Assembly (NCBI GenBank): GCA_017849455.1
Contig: JAFIGX010000022.1
Coordinates: 62,001 to 126,000 of the forward strand
DNA from: Pseudobacter sp.
GTDB lineage: Bacteria > Bacteroidota > Bacteroidia > Chitinophagales > Chitinophagaceae
Direction of reading: 5' to 3'
DNA length: 64,000 nt
Part shown: in pieces, positions 2,761-5,167 of the stretch
Position numbering within the stretch: position 1 is the stretch's first letter
How the letters are laid out: the number at the start of each line of letters is the position of its first letter
Notes under the pieces: model-generated
Told to the model about the DNA's origin: nothing
The model's database searches: none
The model's input: the letters and a program-made list of their open reading frames with translations, nothing else
Position numbers and translations under genes: made by a program

Positions 2761-3555
2761 ATGAGTACAAGTACGAAGAAGGAGAAAGCAGAACCTGTTA
2801 TCCTGGTCACCAATGATGATGGAATCACAGCCCCGGGCATCCGGAACCTGGTAGAGGCAGTAAAAGATCTTGGAAAGATCGTGGTGGTGGCGCCCGACAA
2901 GCCGCAATCCGGCATGGGACATGCCATCACCATCGGACAGCCACTGCGCCTTCATGCCATGCATATTTTCGATGGAGTGGAAGCCTGGCAATGCTCCGGT
3001 ACACCGGTAGATTGCGTAAAACTGGCGGTAGATAAAGTATTGCATCGCAAACCCGATCTCTGCCTGAGCGGCATCAACCATGGAGCCAACCATTCCATCA
3101 ATGTGATCTATTCAGGCACCATGTCGGCCGCCGTTGAAGCCGCCATCGAAAGTATCCCCTCTGTAGGATTCTCCCTGCTCGACTATAGTATCGAAGCCGA
3201 TTTTTCCGCAGCCCGCAAATATGCCCGGCTGATCGTGGAAAAACTGCTGAAAGGCACGCCAGACAGGCATATGGTCCTGAACGTGAACATCCCTTCCGTT
3301 CCGGATGAGCTGATCAAAGGTATCAGCGTTTGCCGCCAGGCCTATGCCAAGTATGAAGAGGATTTCATCGAACGTAACGATCCGAATGGCCATAAATACT
3401 ATTGGCTCACCGGCCAGTTCGTGAATTTCGATGAAGGAAAAGATACCGATGTCTGGGCACTTGAACATAATTACGTAAGTGTGGTCCCCGTACAATTTGA
3501 TCTTACGAATTACGTTCTAAAGGACAAACTCGAAAAAATGTGGAAACCTTCATAA
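2761..3555 (+). CDS. surE: 5'/3'-nucleotidase SurE
   Basis: Metal-dependent nucleoside monophosphatase acting on 5'- and 3'-nucleotides in the cytoplasm. Residues 12-25 carry the metal site ILVTNDDGITAPG (Asp-Asp), followed by VVVAPDKPQSGMGHAIT, CSGTPVDCVKLA and LSGINHGANHSINVIYSGTMSAA with the conserved Asn ligand. About 264 residues, normal for the family. The ATG at 2761 gives the expected N-terminus; an in-frame ATG at 2689 would add 24 unconserved residues and overlap the promoter region. It is divergent from atpG. Its TAA stop overlaps the ATG of the next gene (TAATG), so the two are probably translationally coupled. Confidence 0.95.
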   Translation: MSTSTKKEKAEPVILVTNDDGITAPGIRNLVEAVKDLGKIVVVAPDKPQSGMGHAITIGQPLRLHAMHIFDGVEAWQCSGTPVDCVKLAVDKVLHRKPDLCLSGINHGANHSINVIYSGTMSAAVEAAIESIPSVGFSLLDYSIEADFSAARKYARLIVEKLLKGTPDRHMVLNVNIPSVPDELIKGISVCRQAYAKYEEDFIERNDPNGHKYYWLTGQFVNFDEGKDTDVWALEHNYVSVVPVQFDLTNYVLKDKLEKMWKPS

Positions 3556-3985: not shown

Positions 3986-5167
3986 ATGCGCTATTATTTA
4001 ATTGCAGGGGAAGCTTCGGGTGATCTGCATGGTAGTAATCTTATCAAGGAACTGAAAAAACTGGACAATGCGGCCGTGGTCCGATGCTGGGGCGGCGACC
4101 TGATGCAACAGGCAGGCGGTGAGCTCGTAAAACACTACCGTGACCTCGCCTTCATGGGCTTCATTGAAGTGGTTCGCAATCTCGGCACCATCCTGCGCAA
4201 CCTCCGTATCTGCAAAGAAGATATCCGGCAATTCAATCCCGATGCCCTGGTGCTGATCGATTACCCTGGCTTCAATCTGCGCATAGCAGAATGGGCCCAT
4301 GCCCAGGGCCTTAAAGTGATCTATTATATTTCGCCGCAGGTTTGGGCCTGGAAAGAGAACAGGGTGAAGAAAATGAAACAGACGATCGACAAGATGCTGG
4401 TGATCCTGCCTTTCGAGAAAGATTATTACCGCAATAAATGGAACTGGGAAGTGGAATACGTGGGGCATCCATTGGTGGAAGTGGTGGAAGCGTATCAGCA
4501 GAGAGTTGGCAGTGGGCAATGGGCAATGGGCAGTTCACAGCCAGCCGCTGCAGGAGGTCCCGAAATTATTACGCAACAACTGCCAACTGCCAACCGCCAA
4601 CTGCCCATTATTGCCGTTCTACCCGGCAGCAGGAAGCAGGAGATCCTGAAGAAATTACCGATCATGCTGGAGCTCGGCCATTCATTTCCCGATCATCAGT
4701 TCGTGGTGGCGAAAGCGCCGGGACAGGAAGACAGTTTTTACGAGCCTTTGCTGCAAGGGCATCCCAATGTAAGCGCTGTACGTGATCAGACTTATGCCCT
4801 GCTGATGCAATCGAAGGCCGCGATGGTGACGTCGGGTACAGCTACACTCGAAACCGCTTTGTTCGGCGTACCGGAAGTAGTCTGTTATAAAGGAAGCAAT
4901 ATTTCTTACCAGATCGCCAGGAGGCTGATCAAAGTGAAATATATTTCCCTGGTAAACCTTATCATGGATAAGCTGGTAGTGAAAGAACTGATCCAGCAGG
5001 ACCTCACTCCCCAAAACCTGCAGCGCGAGCTCGATGAACTTCTCCATGACCCCCAACGCCAACAACAACTGCGCACCGATTATGCAGCCCTGAAAAAGCT
5101 ATTGGGTGAAGGCGGACATGCATCCGCAAAAGCCGCTGAGCAGATCATTTCATTTTTGAAAGACTAG
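3986..5167 (+). CDS. lpxB: lipid-A-disaccharide synthase, with an inserted repeat-encoded linker
   Basis: GT19 glycosyltransferase that joins UDP-2,3-diacylglucosamine and lipid X to form the lipid A disaccharide at the inner membrane. The start MRYYLIAGEASGDLHG (ATG 3986) is the canonical family N-terminus; a box TACTTTGC lies about 30 bp upstream. Further family blocks: DYPGFNLRIAEWAHAQG, YYISPQVWAWKENRVKKM, YVGHPLVE, VLPGSRKQEI, and the nucleotide site TSGTATLETALFGVPEVVCYK. At 393 aa it is slightly long. The excess lies between GHPLVE and VLPGSRKQE, where residues near 174-208 (around GSGQWAMGSSQ and LPTANRQLPII) are encoded by a GTTGGCAGTGGGC-type inverted repeat (see 4504-4609). The frame is kept, so the enzyme is probably functional. 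Confidence 0.94.
   Translation: MRYYLIAGEASGDLHGSNLIKELKKLDNAAVVRCWGGDLMQQAGGELVKHYRDLAFMGFIEVVRNLGTILRNLRICKEDIRQFNPDALVLIDYPGFNLRIAEWAHAQGLKVIYYISPQVWAWKENRVKKMKQTIDKMLVILPFEKDYYRNKWNWEVEYVGHPLVEVVEAYQQRVGSGQWAMGSSQPAAAGGPEIITQQLPTANRQLPIIAVLPGSRKQEILKKLPIMLELGHSFPDHQFVVAKAPGQEDSFYEPLLQGHPNVSAVRDQTYALLMQSKAAMVTSGTATLETALFGVPEVVCYKGSNISYQIARRLIKVKYISLVNLIMDKLVVKELIQQDLTPQNLQRELDELLHDPQRQQQLRTDYAALKKLLGEGGHASAKAAEQIISFLKD
4504..4609. repeat. inverted-repeat element (GTTGGCAGTGGGC type) inside lpxB
   Basis: The left arm 4504-4535 is made of near-repeats of GTTGGCAGT / GGGCAATGGGCAAT; the right arm 4578-4609 is made of AACTGCCAACTGCC / AACCGCCAACTGCCC, an imperfect reverse complement. The middle is about 42 bp. 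It has the same design as the elements at 24478, 28388, 29646 and 59781, but with different words. Here it is translated, without a frame break, as part of the LpxB inter-domain linker. Confidence 0.8.

Follow-up and report, generated by a model that had tools for sequence, protein, structure and literature searches.

A heptad-armed palindrome in the LpxB linker of a Pseudobacter genome, probably one copy of a dispersed genome-specific element

RESULTS

A palindrome translated within lpxB

How did a palindrome built of 7-bp repeats come to be translated inside lpxB: did it arise in place or did it arrive from elsewhere? The window (the whole 64-kb stretch of DNA that was analyzed) is a part of a 5.51-Mb genome in 26 contigs (G000, contig C11). 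In this genome lpxB is single-copy as far as found, with one tblastn match; its product has structural relatives in PDB (5w8n, 5w8s). The features discussed below are:

3986-5167, + strand: lpxB, lipid-A-disaccharide synthase, 393 aa (NCBIfam TIGR00215, 250.8 bits versus a cut-off of 190.25)
4463-4633, + strand: codons from GHPL to PGSR, the inter-domain linker with flanking motifs, 57 residues (alignment with congeners)
4504-4602, + strand: heptad palindrome, likeliest span of the inserted unit, 99 nt, ends AGTTGG...CCAACT (end phase; absent from congeners)
4504-4535, + strand: G-rich arm made of GGCARTK units, AGTTGGCAGTGGGCAATGGGCAATGGGCAGTT
4536-4576, + strand: spacer between the arms, 41 nt, translated about as SQPAAAGGPEIITQ
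4577-4609, - strand: C-rich arm, reverse-complement heptads, CAACTGCCAACTGCCAACCGCCAACTGCCCATT

The lpxB frame stays open through both arms and the spacer, and Tandem Repeats Finder reported period 7 in both arms. A search of the window for TGGGCAGTTGGCAGT with up to three mismatches gave 9 matches, 7 of them in the lpxB stretch (expected number 1.78); a count of 9 was equalled by none of 100 shuffles.

The heptad phase suggests that the true unit would be 4504-4602; positions 4603-4609, similar both to a heptad variant and to the native CCCATC of the congeners, may be native lpxB sequence. Folded as RNA, the lpxB copy was no more stable than its dinucleotide shuffles (z = -1.15), while six other copies had z = -4.5 to -14.2; the lpxB hairpin is decayed.

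The LpxB linker in congeners and in structure

The GHPL-PGSR interval of 57 residues compares with 35 residues in G001, G002 and G005 and 46 in G004, the four of five congeners compared (G003, 88% complete, yielded no lpxB match); thus the net gain is 22 residues versus three congeners and 11 versus G004. G001, G002 and G005 have a common GNTPPAI...TKP linker without heptads, to which the linker of G004 is unrelated; the lpxB linker of G005 has the very same DNA sequence as a Pseudoflavitalea rhizosphaerae record (L137), and going by such named relatives the host most likely belongs to Chitinophagaceae. The insert has taken the place of native linker, about 12-13 residues having gone out and about 35 come in, and is no clean addition.

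In E. coli LpxB (5w8n) about 20 residues lie between the two aligned domains at the linker position. The AlphaFold2 model of our LpxB (39-sequence alignment) had a mean pLDDT of 85.8, with pLDDT <50 only at residues 178-198, within the insert; by this model the segment is a linker predicted to be disordered.

A preliminary description of this locus had placed two mirrored heptad arms at 4504-4609 between the LpxB motifs; these coordinates are exact by sequence and by Tandem Repeats Finder. Its assignment of the segment to an inter-domain linker agrees with the predicted disorder, its statement that the frame is kept with the open frame 3986-5167, and the check it proposed on relatives turned out as expected, congeneric linkers being shorter (35 or 46 versus 57 residues). 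What it called an extra segment is indeed longer than in four congeners, by 11-22 residues, though native linker was replaced instead of simply being extended.

A dispersed family in the source genome

A degenerate three-heptad pattern (up to three mismatches) matched the source genome 505 times versus 4 times for a reversed control. In the five congeners the same pattern gave 4-13 matches versus 3-8 for their own controls, i.e. background. The reversed control matched G025 154 times and G011 77 times; these two genomes possibly hold another dispersed heptad family.

Pairs of arms were delimited among the matches listed (about the first 100 of 505). Arms were sought in 54 loci and 48 loci were used for pairing, with L008, L012 and L097-L100 left out as repeats of contig ends; at least 47 pairs were obtained, to which the loci with unpaired arms (L069, L074, L085, L096) do not contribute. 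Among the matches listed the G-arm came first in 47/47 pairs, the median arm length was 32-33 nt (47 pairs), and most copies were intergenic, with a minority in genes. No reversed pair was seen among the 54 loci scanned.

Four contig ends, of C1, C3, C7 and C26 (L003, L008, L012, L016), consist of TTGGCAG units alone over about 80-104 nt and have one spacer in common; apparently, these are two loci with a recently copied long element at which the assembly broke. A search for plasmid carriage with a long copy gave no match. An exact heptad 24-mer was present in 27 IMG/VR contigs labelled viral (L292-L318), mostly in unpaired arrays of the same orientation; some of these contigs have several arrays each, and there were only three G-first pairs (L301 twice, L315).

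A detector of lag-7 runs, applied to 400 of about 7800 kb of congener G001 and to 400 kb of G031, found 2 runs in G001 (0 paired) and 30 in G031 (3 paired), with 2 and 0 in the Markov control. The decayed lpxB copy was itself not flagged as paired; thus, the detector is insensitive to old copies.

Ends, arms and spacers

Among the matches listed, one heptad phase (AGT...) prevailed at the outer ends, being present at 53 of 78 ends of intergenic elements (1/7 expected, p = 6e-27) and at 8 of 13 ends of in-gene elements (p = 1e-4). Arms mirrored each other within an element better than between elements (20.55 versus 17.28, sd 0.52; the largest of 5000 permutations was 19.74). Several intergenic copies among the matches listed have homologous spacers; in one pair, spacers of 86 and 87 nt are 97% identical with unrelated flanks. 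No target duplication was seen: the flanks of 38 intergenic elements had an average match of 0.97, versus 0.79 (sd 0.22) in permutations. Phase-locked ends, mirrored arms, common spacers and absence of target duplication argue for a moving unit.

One could suppose instead that the arrays arose locally in unconstrained linker DNA, polymerase slippage making the 7-bp arrays and fold-back template switching making the second arm, with no movement between loci. Simple repeats of bacteria are described as containing an excess of heptads, for which slippage was proposed (PMC4692102). Independent slippage, however, would yield different heptads at each locus, while here the same few heptads, absent from congeners, come back at dozens of places in a single genome; neither the phase-locked ends nor the spacers common to several loci fit a local origin.

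In-gene copies differ from the intergenic ones. Among the matches listed, spacers of 38-87 nt were found in 38/40 intergenic copies, while in-gene copies had spacers of 14-42 nt, less than the bulk of the intergenic copies (Mann-Whitney p = 5e-4). No in-gene spacer, that of lpxB (4536-4576) included, matched any other element spacer, and in-gene arms mirror each other less well than intergenic arms. With short unmatched spacers and poor arm mirroring, it is only by their arms and ends that in-gene copies can be equated with the mobile unit. We read these differences as drift under protein-level selection, a reading that also leaves room for local origin.

No transposase or other enzyme was linked to the heptad element, and no autonomous partner with the same ends was found among the loci read. 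The palindrome could belong to a RAYT-mobilized REP/REPIN family, moved as single-stranded DNA by the genome's Y1_Tnp enzyme, for which there is one gene. Absence of target duplication would fit, and GTAG REPs too are described as standing after genes, forming TAG stops with their ends, making pairs of opposite orientation and occurring within genes (PMC3733652). However, GT precedes AG at just 4 of 61 phase-locked ends, so that there is no GTAG tag; the Y1_Tnp locus of the source genome is without heptad arms; no paired heptad element was seen in 18 Y1_Tnp neighbourhoods from 12 genomes (four had one lag-7 run each; one was masked); and a Y1_Tnp gene is present in 5/5 congeners searched, the heptad family in none. 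With no GTAG tag and no paired heptad element seen at Y1_Tnp loci, RAYT mobilization was unsupported on test, and we consider it highly improbable.

A second palindrome, with period near 8 (AAGTTGATAAGTTAAC type), was observed in L101 at about 2974-3092 (contig C7), about 1.2 kb from the Y1_Tnp gene, and also in L285; genes beside the L101 palindrome look like aromatic biosynthesis.

Copies within genes

Besides lpxB, an open frame runs through the element in tilS, pyrD, birA, anmK and a gene for a double ABC ATPase; rmlD, split over two contig ends, probably has a further in-frame copy. Spanning ORFs at L028 (second copy), L061, L062, L072, L090 and L095 were judged spurious and not counted as in-gene. 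Genes tilS and birA, as lpxB, had one match each in the source genome; two extra matches for pyrD cover only arm peptides.

In comparison with relatives, pyrD is longer by about 40 residues, gained within a short loop, and birA by about 20 residues; in tilS the element stands in place of native sequence and the protein is about 3 residues longer; the anmK and ABC ATPase copies were assigned from their open frames and protein family matches. At the positions of the lpxB, pyrD and birA copies, relatives have empty or shorter sites, in support of insertion. Replacement with almost no length change, as in tilS, is unexplained by simple insertion and favours local origin.

The consensus heptads, TTGGCAG, TTGGCAA, TGGGCAG and TGGGCAA, have no stop codon in six frames, and as three heptads make 21 nt, an array encodes one and the same cyclic peptide whatever the frame (LAVGSWQ and LPTANCQ types). 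Open heptads are not special, being 50% of all heptads; nonetheless, arms open in six frames made up 28/47 of G-arms and 28/47 of C-arms among the matches listed, versus 2.6% of shuffled arms. With a stop-free cyclic peptide available in any frame, landing in a disordered linker would add a tolerated flexible peptide.

Placement after genes

Among the matches listed, 24 of 75 intergenic ends were no more than 9 nt away from the stop codon of a long ORF (120 codons or more), and several adjoining genes owe the AG of their TAG stop to the element. In the case of metH, gene and element meet within the stop codon (T/AG), and the element nearly fills the interval to the convergent gene (L020); in congener G004 (L286) metH ends with TGA followed by an intrinsic-terminator-like hairpin with a T-run, in the place of which the heptad palindrome is found here.

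Such placement would be expected if the element primarily had a function at 3' ends, as RNA or DNA (a terminator or an mRNA protector), and was selected after stops, in-gene copies being by-products; the metH replacement and the fold stability of several copies, much above that of shuffles (z down to -14.2), point the same way. On the other hand, sequences of delimited elements have no T run after them, 14 loci gave no match to a known RNA family (Rfam) on the element itself, and congeners manage without the element. We find this explanation rather unlikely; as it concerns function after arrival, not origin, it is compatible with a dispersed element. At one locus a Bacteroidales small SRP RNA (RF04183) adjoins an element (L064:1823-1930).

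LpxB linkers of other genera

We collected 109 LpxB loci of relatives; two without the motif were dropped, and the remaining 107 include four duplicate linkers, leaving 103 distinct ones. A strong 7-bp period (at least 14/21 matches at lag 7) was present in 29 of 107 linkers (28 of 103 distinct). Lags 4-6 and 8-11 gave 0-3 linkers, shuffled linkers gave 0.7 on average, and just 1 of 214 neighbouring coding segments had such a period. About 24 different canonical heptads occur among the 29 periodic linkers; only some of these linkers are palindromic, a single arm being frequent.

Fourteen of the 29 periodic linkers have 33-34 residues, thus no extra length, and linkers with and without heptads do not differ significantly in length (p = 0.07), which argues against pure insertion as the only mode. 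Heptads without added length and frequent single arms are what local origin would predict. Weighing them against the dispersal of the same few heptads over the source genome, we regard local origin of the lpxB segment as improbable.

Some linkers do have dispersed kin. The linker query of a Ferruginibacter MAG (L191) matched its own genome 16 times. A Chitinophagaceae MAG (L152/G060) has in its lpxB linker an AGTTTGG...CCAAACT palindrome of a family with 79 matches in that genome and 0 in four other genomes; 21 loci read contained 12 G-first pairs, the lpxB one included, and no reversed pair. This is an independent replication: a linker copy drawn from the genome's own dispersed palindrome family. 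Also, G031 has a palindromic heptad insert of different sequence in the same PyrD loop as the source genome.

We tentatively consider, as a somewhat doubtful generalization, that Chitinophagaceae have a class of elements defined by architecture, i.e. inverted G-first period-7 arrays, with the heptad renewed in each genome and the same loops (LpxB linker, PyrD loop) being revisited. As 7 is coprime to 3, such elements could enter protein genes in any frame. If so, the spreading agent must recognize period or fold and no fixed sequence.

DISCUSSION

The lpxB segment, with its dispersed kin, defined ends, in-frame position, absence from congeners and predicted disorder, is in our view quite likely a copy of a palindromic element that is specific to the source genome and is dispersed there, having spread after divergence from the congeners. 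We infer that it moved as a discrete unit mobilized in trans, probably via a fold-back intermediate, since the arms mirror one another and there is no target duplication. The element would consist of an AGTTGGC-type heptad array, a short spacer and the mirrored array, always with G-arm first. Copies would have settled mainly between genes, often directly past stop codons; a minority would have entered genes at loop or linker codons, selection keeping only in-frame versions. In lpxB the unit would have taken the place of about 12-13 native residues and drifted since.

The preliminary description had expected other copies in spacers; dozens are present in the source genome, most between genes. 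It also proposed movement of the element into coding DNA, which agrees with the dispersed copies and the in-frame copies in other genes, the mode of movement being our inference; the entry into an essential gene, which it called unusual, is so but has precedents in Rickettsia palindromic elements (RPE) and intragenic REPs. As in-frame palindromes are known in essential bacterial genes, the lpxB event is not unprecedented. No report of Chitinophagaceae heptad palindromes or of lpxB inserts was found in the literature searched, mostly outside subscription journals. Thus, the general kind is known; what appears new is its genome-specific form with heptad arms, together with the repeated occupation of the LpxB linker.

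These observations extend protein-invading palindromes to a free-living Bacteroidota family and to single-copy housekeeping genes, and offer a simple account of heptad tolerance in coding DNA. Different heptads have colonized the linker of one core enzyme again and again, an insertion experiment of nature that makes both the mobility mechanism and linker tolerance directly testable. There is also a warning for annotation: stretches similar to QLPTANCQ or FGVWSLE in Bacteroidota proteins may be translated repeats.

Comparison with known systems

Being small and multicopy with terminal inverted repeats (at least 47 pairs among the matches listed), the element resembles MITEs; unlike in MITEs, no target-site duplication was detected. 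TAACTGA heptamers form dispersed 7-bp arrays in Beggiatoaceae, Cyanobacteria and some Bacteroidetes, as described in PMC4679880; these are, however, direct rather than inverted and mostly located just upstream of start codons (PMC4679880).

In Xanthomonas, convergent inverted pairs of GGGAATC heptads number 70 in Xcc and 75 in Xac and are described as mainly intergenic, near stop codons on the coding strand, with ORF overlap of 7-11% (PMC4692102). G-rich period-7 arrays in convergent pairs near stop codons were found here too. The heptad is a different one, and the Xanthomonas repeats were described for quadruplexes (PMC4692102); term searches of that paper turned up nothing on in-frame insertion into housekeeping genes. 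Four or more G-tracts of 3 were absent from the lpxB G-arm, which has three GGG and one GG; with many units having GG only (the consensus unit being GG or GGG), G-quadruplex formation was ruled out as a general principle.

GTAG/CGTC REPs are described beside gene 3' ends, with termini that give TAG stops, dimers of opposite orientation and intragenic inserts; two Xanthomonas species have different REPs at about the same recB site (PMC3733652). Position at the 3'-end, TAG stops, opposed arms and in-gene copies recur here, while the arms are tandem heptads with no GTAG tag and no linked RAYT.

Rickettsia palindromic elements, as described, are about 100-150 bp long and occur both between genes and in frame in conserved genes, where the peptide is tolerated (PMC2229807, PMC10969869). 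RPE families encode a conserved peptide, while here 7-bp arrays vary by genome in a Bacteroidota host, and the likeness is one of description. Here too a palindromic repeat resides in frame in conserved genes, lpxB, pyrD and birA, and in tilS as a replacement.
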